Counted from the stretch's first letter, positions 3,187-61,767 are shown. The stretch is 64,000 nucleotides of DNA from Frischella japonica (GCF_014489845.1 NZ_JABURY010000010.1:1-64000); one strand, 5' to 3'. Notes: a model not told the origin generated them from the sequence alone. Program-made: numbers and translations.

Positions 3187-3849
3187 TTATAGCTTTAGAT
3201 CGCCGAAAGCATTTATCCAATCATTATCAAACTGTTTAATCGCAGCGTCTACTGCAGGGTCAGCAATGAATAATTCCGCAATATCTGTTGGAATAGTAAT
3301 TGATTTACAACCAGCTAATAAGCAATCAAGGACTTGTCGTGGTGTCCGAAAACTTGCCGCTAAAATCATTGATGAGGGGCAATGCATCTCAAGTAATGTT
3401 TGTAATTCAGCAACGACTTCAATTCCGCTACCACCTTGAGCATCGATACGATTAACATAAGGCGCGACATATTTAGCACCAGCTAAAGCTGAGAGAAATC
3501 CTTGTCCTGCACCATAAACGGCCGTACCTAGTGTAGTTATTTCTTGGGCTGACAACTCTTTAATTGCGATTAATCCTTCGCTAGTGACAGGAACTTTGAT
3601 TACAATGGTTGGAAAATACAGTCTTAATTTTTCTGCCTCTTTAATCATATCTTTAGCATTATTTGCGATAACTTGTGCAAATAATTGACTTTTAGCACCA
3701 ACTGCTGCTTGTAATTCATTCAATACATCAAAAATAGGTTTTTTCTCTTTTGCCACAATACTTGGATTAGTTGTTACCCCTTGTATCGGTAATATTTTTG
3801 CTAATCTTTTAACCGATTTTACATCAGCAGTATCTAAATAAAGTTCCAT
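3187..3849 (-). CDS. fsa: Fructose-6-phosphate aldolase (FSA, TalB-like small aldolase)
   Basis: This 220-aa protein has the usual length of E. coli FsaA/FsaB and matches them along the chain. It starts [10 protein letters not shown] and has the Schiff-base lysine K85 in IKVPVT, the [11 protein letters not shown] block and [12 protein letters not shown] makes or splits C3-C3 aldol bonds using dihydroxyacetone- or hydroxyacetone-type donors with glyceraldehyde-3-phosphate. The ATG at 3849 is preferred over one at 3855 because AAAGG is properly spaced only from 3849. It has its own promoter region with a perfect CRP site and a TTTCGAA operator-like repeat, features shared with the PTS and ybiYW. 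In this context its likely substrate is 1-deoxyfructose-6-phosphate made by the nearby YbiW-type lyase, as reported for E. coli FsaA. That role is inference here. Confidence 0.93.
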
Positions 3850-3872
3850 ATTCATCCTTTTAGTAGTTAAAT

Positions 3873-3888
3873 TTACGTTCGAAAGTAA
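3873..3888 (-). promoter_or_regulatory. Operator-like near-palindrome in the fsa promoter
   Basis: On the minus strand it reads TTAC-TTTCGAAC-GTAA, a 16-base repeat with a single central mismatch. It overlaps the predicted start point if TAAAAT (3888-3893) is the -10. The TTTCGAA core recurs at the PTS and ybiY promoters. I infer it binds one of the two neighbouring DeoR-family regulators. Confidence 0.55.
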
Positions 3889-3933
3889 TTTTAATGCAAA
3901 AAGAAAGTTGAATCTTTTATTTATTTAAAAATT

Positions 3934-3949
3934 TGTGAGTTACATCACA
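3934..3949 (-). promoter_or_regulatory. CRP (cAMP receptor protein) site, fsa promoter
   Basis: TGTGA-GTTACA-TCACA matches the CRP consensus half-sites perfectly. Its centre (3941.5) is about 61 bases upstream of the start point implied by TAAAAT at 3888-3893. That is the classic class I spacing. Confidence 0.8.
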
Positions 3950-4220
3950 TAAATTTTTGTTAAAAAACTATTGAGGTATTGAGCTACTTTTTATTATATT
4001 GATGAGATACCATTGTCGCAACATATTAAAATAATTAATATTTAATGTGATTTTGATGTTTAATAACGAGCAAAATTATGCAACATAACACATTAATATT
4101 TATGCAGCTGTGGCTATAGATATTATTTTCATCGTATTATCGCCAAAATTTAATATGATACGAACAATACGATTTAAAAATTGGCAATAATAAACATTAC
4201 ATTATTCACAAATGAGTCCT
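3950..4220. other. Spacer between fsa promoter and PTS operon end
   Basis: No open frame with coding character was seen. It holds the far-upstream part of the fsa control region and, at its right edge, the PTS-operon hairpin. Confidence 0.45.
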
Positions 4221-4251
4221 AACCATCATGCTGAATAATAACATGATGGTT
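4221..4251 (-). terminator. Hairpin after PTS IIC gene
   Basis: A perfect 10-bp stem AACCATCATG / CATGATGGTT with an 11-base loop begins about 10 bases after the IIC stop. The minus-strand side lacks a strong U tract, so termination efficiency is uncertain. Confidence 0.5.
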
Positions 4252-4260
4252 TGAATTTTA

Positions 4261-5592
4261 TTAATGAGATTGTAGCATCGTAGTCGATTGCTCTTGTTGT
4301 TCTTTGGCGTAGGCAATAGCATCCATTTTTCTAAAGAAGGGATAATAGCCAATGACTGAGATAATGAGAATAACTAATTGAATCAGTGCGCCTTGCCAAC
4401 CGGCTACCAAAAATCCTGATAAAATGCCAGGTGTACTCCAAGGCAACATGACACCCGAAAATGGAGCCATAAATCCTATTGCAATAGAGGTATAAACTAA
4501 AATTCCACTTATAATAGGCACCAAAATAAATGGGATAAACATAATTGGATTAAGAACTATGCCGAAACCAAATGTAATTGGTTCATTAATATTAAATAAA
4601 GTTGGAAATATAGTTGCTTTACCTAAAAATTTATATTGTTTTGATTTTGCTGAGAAAATCATAGCAAACACAATTCCAAATGTAATTCCTGAACCAGTAA
4701 ATAAAATAAAAGTATCCAAAAACTGTTGTGTTACAATATGAGCGCCATCACCAATATTTAAAGAGCCATTTTGAGCAAGCAAACGTGTATTATCGATGGC
4801 ATTAGCTGTTAATATCGATGTTACGATACCATTTACGATTGATTGACCGTGTACACCAAACCACCATAAAAATGATATAAAAAATGCGATGGCAATAACA
4901 CCACCAAATGAATCGGTTAAACCTTGTAAAGGCACTTGAATTAAACTATAAATTGCTTCTAATAGTGTGGTTTTACCATAGGTTTTAAACATGGCATAGG
5001 TTATTAATGAAAGTAAAAATATACAGCATGCAGGGATGAAGGCAGTAAATTGTACAGCAACAGTTTTTGGGACTGCTTTAGGCATTTTGATAACAATATT
5101 ACGCCGTAAAAAAAGCGTATAAATAAAACCAACGGTAAGTCCAATGATAATCGCAGAAATCATGCCTTGACCACCAATCCATGCCTTGGCGACGGTATTA
5201 TTCACTACTTCACCAGAAATAGGTGCCACAACATAAGAATTCGATGTTATAAAAAAAGCGGAAACCGCTAACACGCCAGCGGGCAATGGCTCAAAACCTT
5301 CATTTTTCACATATGCATAAGCAATCGCAAAACAAGAAATTAGCCCCATTATTGCAAAGGTTCCACCATAAACCTGCATAAATGGCTCAGTCCAATCATT
5401 ACCTAAAATACTGGCAATCCAATCATTTACCGTTTTAGATGGTATTTGCCCGACAACTAAAAAAAAACTACCTACAACGGTTAATGGCAAAATACTTAGC
5501 ATTCCATCTTTTACCGCAGTAATTCCTTTAGAGTTAACAAATGTTAAAACTTTCGGAAGAATTTTAGTATTAATATATTCAACGATACTCAT
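4261..5592 (-). CDS. PTS IIC permease, lactose/chitobiose family
   Basis: This 443-aa polytopic membrane protein is of the Lac/Cel (chitobiose) PTS IIC type. It has about ten hydrophobic segments, the conserved WWFGVHG stretch near residue 240 and NINEPITFGFG near 335, which line the sugar site in this family. It starts one base after the IIB stop, so IIA-IIB-IIC form a tight minus-strand operon. Family members usually carry beta-disaccharides or chitobiose, but no phospho-beta-glucosidase gene lies nearby. The neighbours are instead fsa, ybiY and ybiW. I infer that the imported sugar is 1,5-anhydroglucitol, another anhydrohexitol, or a glycoside of one. The substrate cannot be read from sequence alone. 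Confidence 0.92.
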   Translation of the reverse strand: MSIVEYINTKILPKVLTFVNSKGITAVKDGMLSILPLTVVGSFFLVVGQIPSKTVNDWIASILGNDWTEPFMQVYGGTFAIMGLISCFAIAYAYVKNEGFEPLPAGVLAVSAFFITSNSYVVAPISGEVVNNTVAKAWIGGQGMISAIIIGLTVGFIYTLFLRRNIVIKMPKAVPKTVAVQFTAFIPACCIFLLSLITYAMFKTYGKTTLLEAIYSLIQVPLQGLTDSFGGVIAIAFFISFLWWFGVHGQSIVNGIVTSILTANAIDNTRLLAQNGSLNIGDGAHIVTQQFLDTFILFTGSGITFGIVFAMIFSAKSKQYKFLGKATIFPTLFNINEPITFGFGIVLNPIMFIPFILVPIISGILVYTSIAIGFMAPFSGVMLPWSTPGILSGFLVAGWQGALIQLVILIISVIGYYPFFRKMDAIAYAKEQQEQSTTMLQSH

Positions 5593-5913
5593 CTATTGTT
5601 CCGCCTTAGTTTGATATAGATTTAATGCAAAATTTAATACGTTTTCCCCGTTCATTGTGCCATAGTCAATCATTGGTATCACTTCAATTGGCACATTAGC
5701 TGGGGCACAAACTTCTTTCGCTTTTTTTAAAGCATATCCCACTTGCGGTCCTAATAAAGCCACGTCCATATCATTAACATAATCTCTAAGTTTGGCATGT
5801 GAATGAGCTTGAATATCTACATCAATACCTTGTTGTTGAGCGGTTTCTAACATTTTTTCAACTAACATACTCGTTGAGAATCCAGCAGCACAGAATAATT
5901 TAATCTTAATCAT
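5593..5913 (-). CDS. PTS IIB, lactose/chitobiose family
   Basis: This 106-aa cytoplasmic domain protein has the phosphorylated cysteine at position 8 in the N-terminal P-loop (FCAAGFSTS), followed by the VALLGPQVGYAL helix region typical of CelA/ChbB. It accepts phosphate from the IIA histidine and passes it to the sugar bound by IIC. It is the middle gene of the IIA-IIB-IIC operon, 27 bases after IIA and abutting IIC. Length and motif agree with the family. No unusual residues were seen apart from A-A in place of the common S-A after the cysteine. Confidence 0.95.
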   Translation of the reverse strand: MIKIKLFCAAGFSTSMLVEKMLETAQQQGIDVDIQAHSHAKLRDYVNDMDVALLGPQVGYALKKAKEVCAPANVPIEVIPMIDYGTMNGENVLNFALNLYQTKAEQ

Positions 5914-5940
5914 GATATTTTCCTTATTTTTATAAATTGC

Positions 5941-6267
5941 TTATTGTTTTTCGATTAACGTGTTTAAGATTTTGCGTAATTCGATAATTTGTTCAATTAA
6001 TGTGATTTCAGATATCGCATTCATCAAATGATCTTGAGCGTGTACAAAAAGAGCATTTACATTTAATGATTCTCCATTCGCTTCCAATGTTAGTAATGTA
6101 GTCTGTTCGTTATGCGCTAATAACAAATATTCATTCGCTTGTTTAAAATTTTCTTCTGCTAAACTATAGTTTTTTTCATTTACGTTTGATAACGCATTAT
6201 AAGCATAGGATTTCGCTGCTCCAGAATTAACAATTAAGTTCATGATCGCTTGTTCAATATTGTCCAT
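5941..6267 (-). CDS. PTS IIA, lactose/chitobiose family
   Basis: This 108-aa all-helical protein has the Lac-type IIA active-site block FVHAQDHLMNA. H76 is the expected phosphohistidine, taking phosphate from HPr. It resembles ChbA/CelC in length and in the SYAYNAL and FKQANEYLLLAHNEQTTLL helices. It is the first gene of the PTS operon. Upstream lie a CRP site and a TTTCGAA operator-like repeat, so the operon should respond to cAMP and to the adjacent DeoR regulator. Confidence 0.95.
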   Translation of the reverse strand: MDNIEQAIMNLIVNSGAAKSYAYNALSNVNEKNYSLAEENFKQANEYLLLAHNEQTTLLTLEANGESLNVNALFVHAQDHLMNAISEITLIEQIIELRKILNTLIEKQ

Positions 6268-6339
6268 TACTTGTTCCTTATATTAATTTCCAATAATTTG
6301 TAAAAAGATTAGCTTAAAAAAAAGAAAAATAAATTTTTT

Positions 6340-6352
6340 TACTTCGAAAGTA
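6340..6352 (-). promoter_or_regulatory. Operator-like repeat in the PTS promoter
   Basis: On the minus strand it reads TACTTTCGAAGTA, with TACTT/AAGTA arms around TCG. It touches the downstream edge of the CRP site. The TTTCGAA core matches the repeats at the fsa and ybiY promoters. Confidence 0.55.
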
Positions 6353-6366
6353 TGATTTAAATCACA
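6351..6366 (-). promoter_or_regulatory. CRP site, PTS operon promoter
   Basis: On the minus strand it reads TGTGA-TTTAAA-TCATA, with one mismatch in the second half-site. It lies about 85-100 bases upstream of the IIA start codon and directly beside the TTTCGAA repeat. Confidence 0.7.
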
Positions 6367-6689
6367 ATAAAAGAAAAATATCAGCTTTCTATAGAAAGTT
6401 TAAAAAGAAAATAAAAAAGTGATAAATATCAAATAACGGTTTTTTATTATTGAAAATATCGATTAACTAGGTGCTATTGCAAATAGATTTGCCGATGTTA
6501 GATTAATTATAATTTTTGATTAAAAGAAAATTCAATTTTGTTAGTAATGATAAAAAGAGGAAATAGTTAATTGGCTATTTAAGTGGCTATCTACTCAATC
6601 AGAAAGACCACTAGCGTAATATATAGTAGTCTTGACTAATCTTTAATGGGATTTAAAAGTGTTTGTTGGCGTGTGAATGGGTAAAACGA
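6367..6689. other. Spacer between PTS promoter and DeoR gene
   Basis: AT-rich sequence upstream of the PTS control sites and downstream of the regulator's stop. No coding frame or clear hairpin was seen. Confidence 0.4.
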
Positions 6690-7433
6690 TTAAGGTAATT
6701 TATAAACATTTATAGACTTTTTCATTATGTCGTTTTCAAAATTTATATCAAGATTATTGTCAGTAATGATGTGTTTAATTTTATCGATCGCTATTGTATA
6801 GGCAAACACCGAACCAAATTTAGAAGAATCAGTAATAACATAGTTTTGAGCACCTTTATCAAGCACACAATTAATGACTTCTGCTCGCATCATATCCCGC
6901 CCAGTAAATCCCATTTCAGGATGATAACCATCGATACCCAAAAAGGCTTTATTAAAATGAGTTTGTGTTATGCACATACGAGTTAATGGTCCTATTACAC
7001 TGTCGCTTTTGGCTTGCAGTAATCCACCTAATAAAATCACATCAAATTTTGCTTCTTTTAACAGCTGAGCAATATAAGTACAAACTGTAATAACAACAAT
7101 TTCACCTTCAAAATTTAGTAATTCTCGAGCGAGTAAGGCATTAGTACTACCACCTTCTATAAAGATTGAATCCCCGTCTTCAATGAAGTTTAATGCATAT
7201 TTAGCCAATCGCTGTTTTAGTGAAAAGTTTAGTTGAATGCGCTCACTCATTACATCCCGGTCCAAAATTTCAGCAAAGCCATGTGTTCGTTTGATAAAAT
7301 TTTGTTCTTCAAGGTAGGATAAATCATTGCGAATAGTCACTACGGATACATTAGTTAGTTTGGACAATTCATTAACACTAATTTTTTGCCGGTTATTGAT
7401 TAATTCCAATATTTTCTGGTGTCTTTTGTGCAT
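6690..7433 (-). CDS. DeoR-family transcriptional regulator (YciT-like)
   Basis: This protein of about 247 aa has an N-terminal winged helix-turn-helix (VNELSKLTNVSVVTIRNDLSYLEEQ, roughly residues 18-42). The C-terminal DeoRC sensor domain carries IFIEGGSTNALLAR, LLGGLLQAKSDSVIGP, DGYHPEMGFTGRDMMR and ITDSSKFG. The closest relative I recognise is E. coli YciT. DeoRC domains bind phosphorylated sugars. The gene diverges from ybiY and is followed by the PTS operon on the same strand. It is the best candidate to repress the three promoters carrying the TTTCGAA repeat. The start could be GTG at 7442 (three residues longer) or ATG at 7433. Neither has a strong ribosome site. Confidence 0.88.
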   Translation of the reverse strand: MHKRHQKILELINNRQKISVNELSKLTNVSVVTIRNDLSYLEEQNFIKRTHGFAEILDRDVMSERIQLNFSLKQRLAKYALNFIEDGDSIFIEGGSTNALLARELLNFEGEIVVITVCTYIAQLLKEAKFDVILLGGLLQAKSDSVIGPLTRMCITQTHFNKAFLGIDGYHPEMGFTGRDMMRAEVINCVLDKGAQNYVITDSSKFGSVFAYTIAIDKIKHIITDNNLDINFENDIMKKSINVYKLP

Positions 7434-7616
7434 GCCAATCACTATAAAATGCTAATTATTTAGTTGCTCATTATCATACACAAATTTTGTTAAAAATTAA
7501 AATAACCCGTTGCTATCAGGTAGTTTTTAATTTTATTCAGTGCGGTAAATACTAGATAAGTCGTCATTTATTTTTCTTAATTTGATTGATGGAAAAATTT
7601 TTTTTAATCGTAAAAA

Positions 7617-7632
7617 TGTGATTTATATCACG
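7617..7632 (+). promoter_or_regulatory. CRP site, ybiYW promoter
   Basis: TGTGA-TTTATA-TCACG has one mismatch to consensus. If TAATAT at 7657-7662 is the -10, the site centre lies about 42-44 bases upstream of the start point, close to class II activation spacing. Confidence 0.75.
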
Positions 7633-7640
7633 GACACTTT

Positions 7641-7650
7641 CTTTCGAAAG
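7641..7650 (+). promoter_or_regulatory. Operator-like palindrome in the ybiYW promoter
   Basis: CTTTCGAAAG is a perfect 10-base palindrome lying between the CRP site and the TAATAT -10, where a bound repressor would block RNA polymerase. It shares TTTCGAA with the fsa and PTS promoters. Confidence 0.6.
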
Positions 7651-7681
7651 ATGCTCTAATATTGCAAAAAGGAGCATGGTT

Positions 7682-8581
7682 ATGATTTTCAATCTACAAC
7701 GCTATTCAACTCATGATGGTCCAGGAATAAGAACCGTTATTTTTTTTAAAGGTTGTTCATTGAGCTGTTTTTGGTGTCAAAACCCAGAAAGTCAATCACT
7801 TAAATCTGAAATTTTATATGACAAACGCTTATGTATACATGATTGTCAATTGTGTGTAAAAAAAATTCCGCAAATTTTTAATAAAGAGTGTGAAGAATTG
7901 ACCATTGACCGTGCTCACTTTAATGAACAATTGATTGAAAATGTAAAGTTTGTTTGTCCTAGTTTGGCAATTAGTGTTTGCGGGGAACCTCAAACTGTCG
8001 ATGAAATTATGGTGGTTGTTAATAAAGATGCGCCATTTTACTTACGCACAAACGGTGGTGTAACTATATCGGGAGGTGAGCCATTCATGCAACCGGATTT
8101 AATTCAGCAAATTTTACAACGTTGTAAAGAAAAAAATTATCATACAGCCGTTGAAACTTGTTTACATGTACCCTGGAAATATGTCGAACCGTCCTTACCT
8201 TATCTTGATCTCTTCTTAGCTGATTTAAAACATACTGATGAAAAAAAATTCAAAGAATGGACAAACGGTTCGGTGAAACGCATTTTGGATAATTTTCGAC
8301 AATTATCCATTACCGGTAAAGCAATTACCGTAAGAGTACCAATAATCCAAGGCTTTAATGCTGATAAATCATCAATGCGCTCAATTATTGATTTTGCAGC
8401 TAATGAAATAACCACTCATGAAATTCACTTTTTACCCTATCACACATTGGGTATTAATAAATACAAAATGTTAGATATGCCATATTACGCACCAACTGAA
8501 CCGCTAAATGACAATGAGTTAGTTGACTATGCAATGCATTATGCTGCGGAAAAAAAATTAACAGCTGTTTTAAGAGGATAA
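7682..8581 (+). CDS. ybiY: Radical SAM glycyl-radical-enzyme activase (YbiY-type)
   Basis: This 299-aa protein uses S-adenosylmethionine and a 4Fe-4S cluster to install the glycyl radical on its partner YbiW. The radical-SAM cysteines are C25-x3-C29-x2-C32 (KGCSLSCFWC). A cysteine-rich ferredoxin-like insert follows (about residues 55-110). TISGGEP and LHVPWKY mark the SAM-binding core. The first residues MIFNLQRYSTHDGPGIRT match E. coli YbiY closely. ATG 7682 is chosen over ATG 7676 because AAAGGAG (7668-7674) is only one base from the latter. It is the first gene of a two-gene operon, with ybiW 30 bases downstream. Control sites upstream are a CRP site and a palindromic operator. Confidence 0.94.
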   Translation: MIFNLQRYSTHDGPGIRTVIFFKGCSLSCFWCQNPESQSLKSEILYDKRLCIHDCQLCVKKIPQIFNKECEELTIDRAHFNEQLIENVKFVCPSLAISVCGEPQTVDEIMVVVNKDAPFYLRTNGGVTISGGEPFMQPDLIQQILQRCKEKNYHTAVETCLHVPWKYVEPSLPYLDLFLADLKHTDEKKFKEWTNGSVKRILDNFRQLSITGKAITVRVPIIQGFNADKSSMRSIIDFAANEITTHEIHFLPYHTLGINKYKMLDMPYYAPTEPLNDNELVDYAMHYAAEKKLTAVLRG

Positions 8582-8611: not shown

Positions 8612-11044
8612 ATGACAAAACTAAATTTAACAGAGATTACCCCCAGAATTCAAGCACATAAAGATGCTTTAATTCATATTATTAAACCCCATATTTGCGT
8701 TGAACGTGCTGAACACTATACTGAATCATATAAAAAACATTTCGCACAACCAATTGTTATCCGTCGCGCATATGCTTTGGTTAATCATTTGGCAAAAAAA
8801 ACAATTTGGATAAAACATGATGAATTAATTGTTGGTAACCAAGCTAGTCATCCTCGAGCGGCACCCATATTTCCAGAATATACCGTCGGCTGGATTGAGA
8901 AAGAAATCGATGAACTAGGCGATAGACCTGGTGCTGGTTTTGAAGTCAGTGAACGTGATAAAGCAGTGTTGCATGATATCTGTCCGTGGTGGCATGGTCA
9001 AACAGTATTAGATCGCTGCTATGCACTTTTTACTGATGAACAGAAATCGTTACTTGATACGGTAATGATTAAAGCAGAAGGAAATATGAATGCTGGAGAT
9101 GCTCATTTAGCAATTAATTTTCCACTGATTCTAGAAAATGGCATTGATGGCATTATTGCTAAAATTAGAGAACGTCGTGAGCGCTTAGATTTAACTAACT
9201 TAGATGATTTTTATAAAAGTCATTTTCTAAAAGCTTCCGATATGTCAATGGTGGCAATGAGTGAATATATTGAACGTTATGCTAAGTTAGCCAATAAAAT
9301 GGCAGAAACCGAAACACGCGACTGGCGTAAAAAAGAGTTACAGGGAATCGCTGATAACTGCCATTTAATTGCGCATCAACCGCCAAAAACTTATTGGCAA
9401 GCATTACAACTATGCTATTTTGTGATGTTAATATTACAAATAGAGTCAAATGGTCATTCCGTTTCCTTTGGGCGTTTGGATCAATATCTTTACCCATTTT
9501 ATCAAAAAGATGTTGAACAAAATAAACTAATAACTCGAGAAAATGCTATAGAATTATTACATAGTTGTTGGTTAAAACTTTTAGAAATTAATAAAATTCG
9601 TTCTGGTTCTCACTCAAAAGCCTCTGCAGGAAGTCCAATGTACCAAAATGTTACTATTGGTGGGCAAAAACTTGTAAATGGTAAACCAATTGATGCGGTA
9701 AATAGTTTATCGTTGGCGATATTAGAATCCTGTGGTCGTTTAAAATCAACACAACCCAATCTTAGTGTGCGTTATCATGCAGGATTAAGTAATGAATTTT
9801 TAGATGCATGTGTGCAAGTTATTCGTTGTGGCTTTGGTATGCCAGCGTTCAATAATGATGAAATTGTAATCCCTGAATTTATTAAACTGGGCGTTGAACC
9901 ACAGGATGCCTATGATTATTCTGCAATTGGTTGTATCGAAACGGCGGTTCCAGGTAAATGGGGATATCGTTGTACAGGTATGAGTTTTATTAACTTTACA
10001 CGTGTTGTACTGGCAGCACTTGAGGGAGGTAAAGATGCAACGAGCGGAGCCGTTTTCTTAGCACAAGAAAAAGCATTGAGTAAAGGTAATTTTACGAACT
10101 TCAATGAAGTGATGCAATCTTGGGATAAACAAATTCGTTATTACACCCGTAAATCTATTGAAATCGAGTATGTCATAGATACCATGTTAGAAGAAAATGC
10201 TCACGATATTATTTGCTCTGTTTTAGTCGATGATTGTATCGAACGTGGTAAAACACTCAAACAAGGCGGGGCTAAATATGATTGGGTTTCAGGTTTACAG
10301 GTCGGATTAGCCAATACAGCCAACAGTCTTGAAGCAGTTAAAAAATTGGTATTTGAACAAGGTATGATTAGTCAACAAGAGCTAGCTGAATCTTTAGCGT
10401 CAAATTTTGACGGTTTAAACGGTGAACAATTACGTCAACGTTTATTAAATGGTGCACCTAAATACGGTAATGATAATGATGAAGTTGACCAGTTATTAGT
10501 TGATGCCTATCACAGTTATATAGATGAACTCAAAAACTATAAGAATCCACGTTATGGTCGTGGCCCAATAGGTGGGACTTATTATGCAGGTACCTCCTCA
10601 ATTTCTGCCAATGTTCCATTTGGTGCACAAACGGCAGCGACGCCAGATGGACGTAAAGCTTGGACTCCTTTAGCAGAAGGCGCGAGTCCTTCATCAGGTA
10701 CCGATACATTAGGTCCTACAGCGGTATTCAATTCCATCGGTAAATTACCAACCGATAAAATTTTGGGTGGGGTATTACTTAATCAAAAACTTAATCCATC
10801 TACGCTCGATCATATCCAAGATAGGCAAAAGCTAATGCTTATGTTACGAACCTTTTTTGAAGTGCACAAGGGGTGGCATGTACAATACAACGTGGTTTCA
10901 CGTGAAACATTATTGGCAGCAAAAACAAATCCCGATCAGTATCGAGATTTAGTGGTTCGTGTTGCTGGTTACTCTGCATTCTTTACCGCATTATCACCAG
11001 AAGCACAAGATGATATCATTGCCCGAACTGAGCATGTTATTTGA
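8612..11044 (+). CDS. ybiW: Glycyl radical enzyme, YbiW type (1,5-anhydroglucitol-6-phosphate lyase)
   Basis: The protein is 810 aa, exactly the length of E. coli YbiW, and collinear with it from end to end. The thiyl-radical cysteine is C441 with E443 (GCIETAV). This C-x-E pair marks the dehydratase/lyase branch of glycyl radical enzymes rather than true pyruvate formate-lyase (C-C). The radical-bearing glycine is G786 in RVAGYSAFF. E. coli YbiW has been reported to open 1,5-anhydroglucitol-6-phosphate to 1-deoxyfructose-6-phosphate, and the neighbouring fsa fits the next step. The enzyme is oxygen-sensitive, so the route is anaerobic. AAAGGAG precedes the start. A hairpin follows the stop. 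Older annotation would call it pyruvate formate-lyase, which the active-site residues argue against. Confidence 0.94.
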   Translation: MTKLNLTEITPRIQAHKDALIHIIKPHICVERAEHYTESYKKHFAQPIVIRRAYALVNHLAKKTIWIKHDELIVGNQASHPRAAPIFPEYTVGWIEKEIDELGDRPGAGFEVSERDKAVLHDICPWWHGQTVLDRCYALFTDEQKSLLDTVMIKAEGNMNAGDAHLAINFPLILENGIDGIIAKIRERRERLDLTNLDDFYKSHFLKASDMSMVAMSEYIERYAKLANKMAETETRDWRKKELQGIADNCHLIAHQPPKTYWQALQLCYFVMLILQIESNGHSVSFGRLDQYLYPFYQKDVEQNKLITRENAIELLHSCWLKLLEINKIRSGSHSKASAGSPMYQNVTIGGQKLVNGKPIDAVNSLSLAILESCGRLKSTQPNLSVRYHAGLSNEFLDACVQVIRCGFGMPAFNNDEIVIPEFIKLGVEPQDAYDYSAIGCIETAVPGKWGYRCTGMSFINFTRVVLAALEGGKDATSGAVFLAQEKALSKGNFTNFNEVMQSWDKQIRYYTRKSIEIEYVIDTMLEENAHDIICSVLVDDCIERGKTLKQGGAKYDWVSGLQVGLANTANSLEAVKKLVFEQGMISQQELAESLASNFDGLNGEQLRQRLLNGAPKYGNDNDEVDQLLVDAYHSYIDELKNYKNPRYGRGPIGGTYYAGTSSISANVPFGAQTAATPDGRKAWTPLAEGASPSSGTDTLGPTAVFNSIGKLPTDKILGGVLLNQKLNPSTLDHIQDRQKLMLMLRTFFEVHKGWHVQYNVVSRETLLAAKTNPDQYRDLVVRVAGYSAFFTALSPEAQDDIIARTEHVI

Positions 11045-11411: not shown

Positions 11412-12170
11412 ATGTTTTATTTAATGAATGAACGTCAAAAAGAAATTATTTACCGAGTCAATGAATTAGGACAAGTTAAAGTCGCTGATTTAGCCCAGTA
11501 TCTGGCTGTTTCGGTTGTTACCATTCGGCATGATCTTAATTTCTTAGAAGAAAAAGGTTACTTAAAACGTGAACATGGTTATGCCGTGACAATGGATAGC
11601 GATAATTTAGATGCGCGAATGAAAATTAAATTTCCGCTAAAACAAAAAATTGCTGAATATGCTGCTTCATTAGTCAATAATAATGAAGTTATCTTTATCG
11701 AAGGGGGAAGTACTAACGCTTTACTTGCTCGTCATTTAGCCTTTACTCGTCGAATAACGTTAATTACTTCAAGTTATTATATTGCTCAAATACTTAAAAC
11801 CACTGATATTAAAGTAATTGTGATTGGTGGCGAATATCAAAAGAAGAGTGATAGTGTTGTTGGCGAACTTGCATGTTTAGCCATTGCGCATATTTCTTTC
11901 GATAAAGCGTTTATTGGTGTTGATGGATTTACTGAACAAACGGGTTTTACTGGGCGCGATAATATGCGCACAGAATTAGTCAATACAATTTTAGATAAAC
12001 CTAGTGAAAATATCATTATTACTGATTCATCAAAATTCGGTCAACAACAGAAATATTTATTTCAACCGCTTAGTGCCATTAATCGAGTAATTACCGATTC
12101 TAATATAGATAGTAAAAATGAACGTTACTTACATGATAATGCAATTATTGTTGATAAGGTTAAATATTAA
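11412..12170 (+). CDS. DeoR-family transcriptional regulator (YciT-like), paralog
   Basis: This 252-aa protein has the same layout as the DeoR regulator at 6690-7433: a winged helix-turn-helix (VADLAQYLAVSVVTIRHDLNFLEE) and a DeoRC domain with IFIEGGSTNALLAR, GFTGRDNMR and ITDSSKFG. The two are clearly paralogs and both resemble E. coli YciT. The second ATG at 11424 would give MNERQKE, which aligns with YciT's own start. ATG 11412 has AAAGG 11 bases upstream. The gene lies 367 bases after ybiW in the same direction. Together with the first copy it brackets the PTS-ybiYW island, so it may tune the same regulon or answer to a second sugar phosphate. Confidence 0.88.
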   Translation: MFYLMNERQKEIIYRVNELGQVKVADLAQYLAVSVVTIRHDLNFLEEKGYLKREHGYAVTMDSDNLDARMKIKFPLKQKIAEYAASLVNNNEVIFIEGGSTNALLARHLAFTRRITLITSSYYIAQILKTTDIKVIVIGGEYQKKSDSVVGELACLAIAHISFDKAFIGVDGFTEQTGFTGRDNMRTELVNTILDKPSENIIITDSSKFGQQQKYLFQPLSAINRVITDSNIDSKNERYLHDNAIIVDKVKY

Positions 12171-61059: not shown

Positions 61060-61707
61060 TTAGCAAGTTATCACTTTAGTTTGTTTAGTGACTTGCTCAA
61101 CTAATTGAGTATCTACTGATTGGTTGGTAATCAGTCCCGTTACTTCACACCAGTCGCAAATTTTATATAAACTTTTACGTGTAAACTTGCTGTAATCAGC
61201 TAAAATAAAGCGCTGTTCAGAGTGAGCTATAATGACCTGATCAATATAGGCATCCGATGATGAAGGGCTTGATGGACCATTTGAGTTACTAAAGCCATCA
61301 GTCCCTAAGAAGCAAAAATCAACATGAATTTGATTAATCATAGCTACTGTCCAGCCACCACAAACCGAACTGCTTTTATTACGTAATTCGCCACCAAAGA
61401 GAAAAACTTGATTTTCTGATTGAATTAACAAACTTGCCACCGGTAATGAATCTGTGAATATTTTAAAACCCGATTTAATAGATAAAAGTTTAGCTAACTC
61501 CAAAGTAGTACTACCGGTACCAATAATCATGGAGCTATTTTGCGGGATTAATTTTAATGTTTTTTGAGTTATCGTTTTTTTAATAATAATTTCTTTTTCT
61601 CGGACTTGAAAAGAGTGCTCAAAAGCAGATTGCTTTAATGTTGCTTCACCATGGCTCTTAATAGCAAAGCCAATCTGTTCTAAATGAGCCGATATTCCGT
61701 TAAATTG
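61060..61707 (-). pseudogene. DeoR-family regulator, lacking the DNA-binding domain
   Basis: The frame runs about 216 codons from just inside an in-frame TGA (61708-61710). It reads HLEQIGFAIKSHGEATLKQ, which is the end of a DeoR winged helix, followed by a full DeoRC sensor domain (IIGTGSTTLELAK, FGGELRNKSSSVCG, FLGTDGF, LADYSKFTRKS). The recognition helix and everything before it are missing, and the first ATG (61530) lies inside the sensor domain. It cannot bind DNA in the normal way. It is divergent from a wrecked hxlB, and both look like parts of one decayed locus. Confidence 0.8.
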
Positions 61708-61767
61708 TCATATTAATTTTACATTAAATATTATCTTAAAAAATTTTCATCAAATTTGACACGATAT

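Follow-up and report, generated by a model that had tools for sequence, protein, structure and literature searches.

Shared YciT-like operators and CRP sites at the fsa, PTS and ybiYW promoters of Frischella japonica, with an apparent exchange of FNR for CRP at ybiY in Orbaceae

Three promoters in a 64,000-nucleotide stretch of DNA from Frischella japonica, a member of the family Orbaceae related to bee-gut symbionts, raise the question of whether they answer to one control, and to whose. They precede fsa (fructose-6-phosphate aldolase family), a phosphotransferase system (PTS) operon of the lactose/cellobiose family, and ybiYW, which encode a glycyl-radical activase and a glycyl radical enzyme. 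An earlier note on this stretch (hereafter the window, at its full length) proposed that all three share a TTTCGAA operator next to a CRP site, and that this would define a new DeoR-family motif. We conclude that the regulon is real and conserved, and that its motif is known in kind from Escherichia coli. In a respect that goes beyond the earlier note, the CRP site at ybiY is, as far as promoter sequences tell, specific to Orbaceae, where it takes the position of the FNR box of other families. Very probably, the three promoters make up a small, conserved YciT-like/CRP regulon through which 1,5-anhydroglucitol or a similar sugar is used anaerobically by an oxygen-sensitive pathway.

The operator emerges from comparison of the DNA upstream of ybiY at 80 collected loci that encode proteins related to the glycyl radical enzyme. 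Throughout Enterobacterales, Aeromonadaceae and Orbaceae, with few exceptions, the standout block is a 14-base-pair (bp) inverted repeat, CTTTCN-WW-NGAAAG. It is conserved at ybiY in some 80 species of gammaproteobacteria, matches exactly in 73 of the 85 ybiY promoters compared, and most commonly reads CTTTCATTCGAAAG. Conservation of the core upstream of orthologous genes, the absence of which the earlier note had named as refuting its proposal, is found. A matrix built from 14 distinct non-Orbaceae versions of the ybiY operator was used to scan the 64,000 positions of the window, and its three highest scores fall at the three promoters (Table 1): 18.2 bits at ybiY (0.02 such scores expected per 64 kb), 16.9 bits at the PTS operon (0.12 expected) and 12.9 bits at fsa (0.85 expected). 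It should be noted that there is some circularity in the consensus, which was fixed after all promoters, including those of the window, had been viewed; the matrix itself was trained outside Orbaceae. CRP boxes were scored out of 10 against TGTGA-N6-TCACA, and sites with at most one mismatch number four in the 64 kb, three of which lie at the fsa (10/10), PTS (9/10) and ybiY (9/10) promoters, where CRP sites had been noted before.

The heptamer itself is another matter. TTTCGAA cores are present at all three promoters (3878-3884, 6343-6349 and 7642-7649), and the window holds nine copies versus 16.8 expected from shuffles. Because this count lies below expectation, the core alone carries no signal, and we rejected TTTCGAA as the motif; the conserved unit is the 14-bp inverted repeat. 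The proposal of operators shared by three promoters holds for the ybiY and fsa sites, while the PTS site had been misplaced and the operator at 6385-6398 missed: the sequence originally put forward, TACTTTCGAAGTA at 6340-6352, has a matrix score of 3.7 (rank 46, against an expectation of about 47 per 64 kb for scores of this size). It is loosely conserved in the genome G035, and we retain it as a possible weak second site after rejecting it as the principal operator. Exact copies of CTTTCNWWNGAAAG number just two in the 2.66 Mb genome, at the ybiY and PTS promoters. The total count of exact operators in the genome is not above that of a reversed-pattern control, and the copies are hence informative because of their location rather than their number. 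That no other promoter carries the operator with a CRP site holds for those tested, since none of 17 other genomic near-matches to the operator has a CRP site of at least 8/10 within 110 bp.

At ybiY, the companion site differs between families. With FNR boxes scored likewise against TTGAT-N4-ATCAA, 70 Enterobacterales (mean 9.0/10) and four Aeromonadaceae (10/10) carry an FNR-like box 19 bp upstream of the operator centre, and nine Orbaceae (mean 9.6/10) carry a CRP-like box at this offset. Composites of box and operator were sought across the order, in 395 genomes, with a tolerance of one mismatch, at which the FNR and CRP skeletons stay distinct; the CRP composite turned up in six genomes, all Orbaceae, and the FNR composite in 28, none of them Orbaceae. 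When the FNR centre is set at -41.5, 56 of the 70 Enterobacterales read TTTAAT at -12 to -7, which fits the expectation for a class II promoter. The Enterobacterales promoters thereby resemble FNR-activated class II promoters of anaerobic enzymes and, by the sequence of their box, would belong among them, whereas Orbaceae have CRP half-sites at the same place and would not. In the window, the putative -10 lies at most 1 bp from the ideal class II place, and a CRP box near -41.5 together with an encoded CRP protein is consistent with a CRP class II promoter. The CRP site and the -10 flank the operator, which places it where a repressor would act, as the earlier note had correctly recognized.

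The FNR state is probably the older one, given its wider distribution. In Orbaceae, low glucose, sensed through CRP, appears to have replaced low oxygen, sensed through FNR, as the activating input at ybiY, with the operator unchanged. We rejected the idea that the CRP site arose because FNR had been lost, as the Orbaceae genomes checked encode FNR-type proteins (IETISR/IETVSR helix) as well as CRP (RETVGR helix). Other departures from the common layout were also observed. The ybiY promoters of Kosakonia and Enterobacter sp. Bisph1 (L076, L079, L080) keep the operator and have lost the FNR box, one half of which is now TCACA, and those of Pasteurellaceae (L020, L021) have a different layout, with ATACTTTCATTCAAA near the start codon and a regulator 48-50% like DeoR2, one of the two DeoR-family regulators encoded in the window.

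The comparison in related species that the earlier note had called for also reaches the other two promoters. At fsa, the operator stands at the matching place in G008 (matrix score 18.3), in G004 (17.8, with an 8/10 CRP site) and at the first fsa copy of G035 (G035a, 14.0), and in Zophobihabitans (21.5) it sits 18 bases further upstream than in the window. The spacing between operator and CRP centres is 63 bp in the window, 61 bp in G008 and 62 bp in Zophobihabitans, which represent three genera. The fsa copies of G022 and G034 lack the operator, as does the second copy of G035. At the PTS promoter, the window has the operator at -124 and the CRP site at -91; in G035, the sole other genome found with an intact PTS cluster, the corresponding positions are -121 and -88, so that the spacing is kept. 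Remnants of EIIC lie beside the gene of the other regulator, DeoR1, in G001 (L136 15741-15872) and G004 (L135 6465-6966), and the PTS import operon is decaying in these two genomes. In Zophobihabitans (L138), a DeoR1 relative is divergent from a glucitol-type PTS, with an exact operator (6741-6754) and a 10/10 CRP site (6814-6829) between them; the pathway may admit the exchange of one PTS for another.

Both regulators of the window point to YciT. The best NCBIfam model by far for DeoR1 and DeoR2 is that of YciT (NF040887), and the AgaR and SrlR models reach at most about half of its score. The 19 rows of the YciT-like clade separate from five other DeoR rows with a 100/100 split, and DeoR1 and DeoR2 group with E. 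coli YciT, the internal branching order being left unsettled. YciT-like regulators adjoin operators in Orbaceae, Hafnia, Yersinia, Aeromonas and elsewhere. The window also contains a DeoR-family gene with an in-frame TGA (61081-61731), which is probably a pseudogene.

Table 1. Positions of genes and regulatory sites around the three promoters, counted from the first nucleotide of the window.
Feature	Position	Strand	Remarks
fsa (fructose-6-phosphate aldolase family)	3187..3855	-	NCBIfam PRK12653/TIGR00875 above cut-off
fsa operator CTTTCGAACGTAAA	3872..3885	-	centre about 23 bases before start codon; matrix rank 3
CRP site at fsa TGTGATGTAACTCACA	3934..3949	-	10/10; 63 bp from operator centre
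PTS operon, lactose/cellobiose family	4261..6267	-	EIIC 4261-5592, EIIB 5593-5913, EIIA 5941-6267
PTS site of the earlier note TACTTTCGAAGTA	6340..6352	-	weak half-site overlapping edge of CRP site
CRP site at PTS promoter	6351..6366	-	9/10; 8/10 at matching place in G035
Principal PTS operator CTTTCTATAGAAAG	6385..6398	-	33 bp upstream of CRP centre; matrix rank 2
DeoR1, YciT-like DeoR-family regulator	6690..7442	-	likely start ATG 7433; NF040887 296 bits
CRP site at ybiY promoter TGTGATTTATATCACG	7617..7632	+	9/10; centred near -41.5
ybiY operator CTTTCTTTCGAAAG	7637..7650	+	19 bp from CRP centre; matrix rank 1
Putative -10 of ybiY, TCTAAT	7655-7660	+	downstream of operator
ybiY, glycyl-radical activase	7676..8581	+	likely start 7682; TIGR02494 above cut-off
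ybiW, glycyl radical enzyme	8612..11044	+	TIGR01774; 77-78% identical to Escherichia orthologues
DeoR2, second YciT-like regulator	11412..12170	+	NF040887 310 bits

In E. coli, the DeoR protein YciT has 49 sites in chromatin immunoprecipitation with exonuclease treatment (ChIP-exo) and a palindromic motif, and its targets include ybiV, ybiY and fsaA, with expression changes on yciT deletion (PMC8464067). A 2025 study reports that ybiYW is active anaerobically, that YciT is enriched in a pull-down on the ybiY promoter near -5 of the predicted start, and that an activator, which it left unnamed, has a footprint near -20 (PMC12132413). Since the promoters that carry our operator coincide with E. 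coli YciT targets (ybiY, fsaA, ybiV), the operator is not new in kind, contrary to what had been proposed, and it is probably the site used by E. coli YciT. As expected of a member of the YciT regulon, the window has the inverted repeat at both its ybiY and fsa promoters. The E. coli genome G061 contains the exact operator twice, at ybiY (CTTTCATTCGAAAG) and before ybiU (CTTTCGAACGAAAG, L147 8535-8548), and a one-mismatch version before ybiV (L147 7514-7527), some 20 bp from a CRP-like site of 9/10; these sites suggest that ybiV and ybiU are in the same regulon as ybiY. Another genome, G053, has an exact operator (L144 6256-6269) some 40 bp upstream of a ybiU homologue; a YciT-like gene follows this homologue, and no ybiYW is nearby.

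The fixed spacing also bears on the unnamed activator. A position 19 bp upstream of -5 is -24, which makes the FNR box a good candidate for the E. coli footprint; if so, the true E. coli ybiY start would lie about 18-20 bp downstream of the predicted one. Our literature search for a link between ybiY and FNR found none. With some reserve, we favour the joint proposition that the anhydroglucitol glycyl-radical pathway of Orbaceae was rewired from FNR to CRP by base changes at one fixed position, with the YciT-type operator kept, and that the activator of E. coli ybiYW is FNR.

The regulon of the window and that of E. coli YciT are alike in their orthologous target genes and in the operator at ybiY. 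They differ in that the window has a CRP box where E. coli has an FNR-type box, an operator of its own at each promoter, two YciT-like proteins instead of one, and no ybiV or ybiU adjoining ybiW; moreover, fsa and ybiY are divergent neighbours in E. coli, whereas in the window they are split by the PTS operon and DeoR1. Sugar operons of the AgaR/SrlR/UlaR type similarly combine a DeoR repressor with CRP on a PTS sugar operon, but the window operator is a 14-bp inverted repeat with a 4-bp centre, and YciT fits the proteins better. Relative to what is known, the FNR-to-CRP exchange and the added PTS promoter look new.

A mechanism can be proposed for this regulon. YbiW cleaves 1,5-anhydroglucitol-6-phosphate to 1-deoxyfructose-6-phosphate after PTS import (reviewed in PMC12441222, from which our pathway assignment is taken), and the activase, the PTS, the aldolase and an orthologue of YbiW are all encoded here. 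The pathway would run from PTS import through glycyl-radical cleavage by YbiW to aldol cleavage by Fsa, which presumably takes 1-deoxyfructose-6-phosphate onward. A YciT-like repressor (DeoR1, DeoR2 or both) would bind CTTTCN-WW-NGAAAG at each promoter and block transcription, at ybiY by occupying the space between activator and -10. DeoR-family repressors are usually released by a phosphorylated intermediate, and a sugar phosphate of this kind would release the YciT-like repressor. CRP with cyclic AMP (CRP-cAMP) would activate all three promoters, acting at ybiY as a class II activator, and would provide carbon-status control in Orbaceae where FNR would provide oxygen control elsewhere. Because the CRP site of the PTS promoter lies downstream of the operator, repression of this promoter may depend on DNA bending or on a further site, for which the half-site at 6340-6352 is a candidate. 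Which DeoR protein binds, the repression, the inducer, the substrate and the real use of CRP or FNR are what we infer from these arrangements.

Several observations weigh against this reading. The fsa site taken alone is non-significant window-wide at the expectation given above, its operator is degraded in G001, which belongs to the same genus as the window, and the fsa operator of G035 has no CRP site beside it. The PTS operator does not occupy a simple blocking position, and the operator is equated with the YciT motif on the strength of shared target promoters. The scores of DeoR1 and DeoR2 do not reach the curated YciT cut-off of 450 bits, hence the name YciT-like and not YciT, and an operator sought at DeoR2's own promoter was not found. 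The expectation for the fsa site, the lack of TTTCGAA enrichment and a genome-wide operator count no higher than its control would also be in keeping with an AT-rich palindrome and CRP-like sites having come together by chance. Such a coincidence is extremely improbable, because a matrix trained outside the family gives the three sites ranks 1, 2 and 3, position and spacing are conserved across genera, the two composites are mutually exclusive over the 395 genomes, and conservation across families contradicts it.

CTTTC-type half-sites are common among DeoR regulators, and the operator might belong to another member of the AgaR/SrlR kind. This is unlikely, even though the recognition helix is similar across DeoR proteins and one exact copy (CTTTCTTTCGAAAG, L205 1501) precedes an AgaR-like DeoR gene of G029 by about 120 bp, an instance of DeoR subfamilies having half-sites in common: in a set of 35 Orbaceae genomes, the exact operator occurs in all six that have ybiW and, as one stray match each, in four of the 29 that do not, a rate like that of the reversed-pattern control. 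A YciT-like protein is present in all 16 genomes chosen, and E. coli ybiY DNA enriched YciT (PMC12132413). A possibility that we entertain tentatively, as a refinement of the YciT-like/CRP regulon and not its opposite, is that the targets are split, with DeoR2 controlling ybiYW (and fsa where there is no DeoR1) and DeoR1 controlling the PTS operon and fsa through slightly different operators. Several Orbaceae have two YciT-like copies versus one in the other families examined, only DeoR2 adjoins ybiYW in G022, G034 and G008, and DeoR1 of Zophobihabitans is set apart beside the glucitol-type PTS, which has a separate operator and CRP site; yet the recognition helices of DeoR1 and DeoR2 are nearly identical (SVVTIRNDL and SVVTIRHDL), and one matrix fits all sites.

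If the YciT-like/CRP regulon is as we describe it, YciT, which has loosely been called osmolarity-related, would gain a specific and conserved role in controlling the 1,5-anhydroglucitol radical pathway, and FNR would be named as the candidate for the activator behind the 2025 footprints at E. coli ybiYW. Orbaceae would also provide a clean natural example of one global regulator having taken the place of another at ybiY, with the promoter position unchanged and genes for both retained in the lineage.

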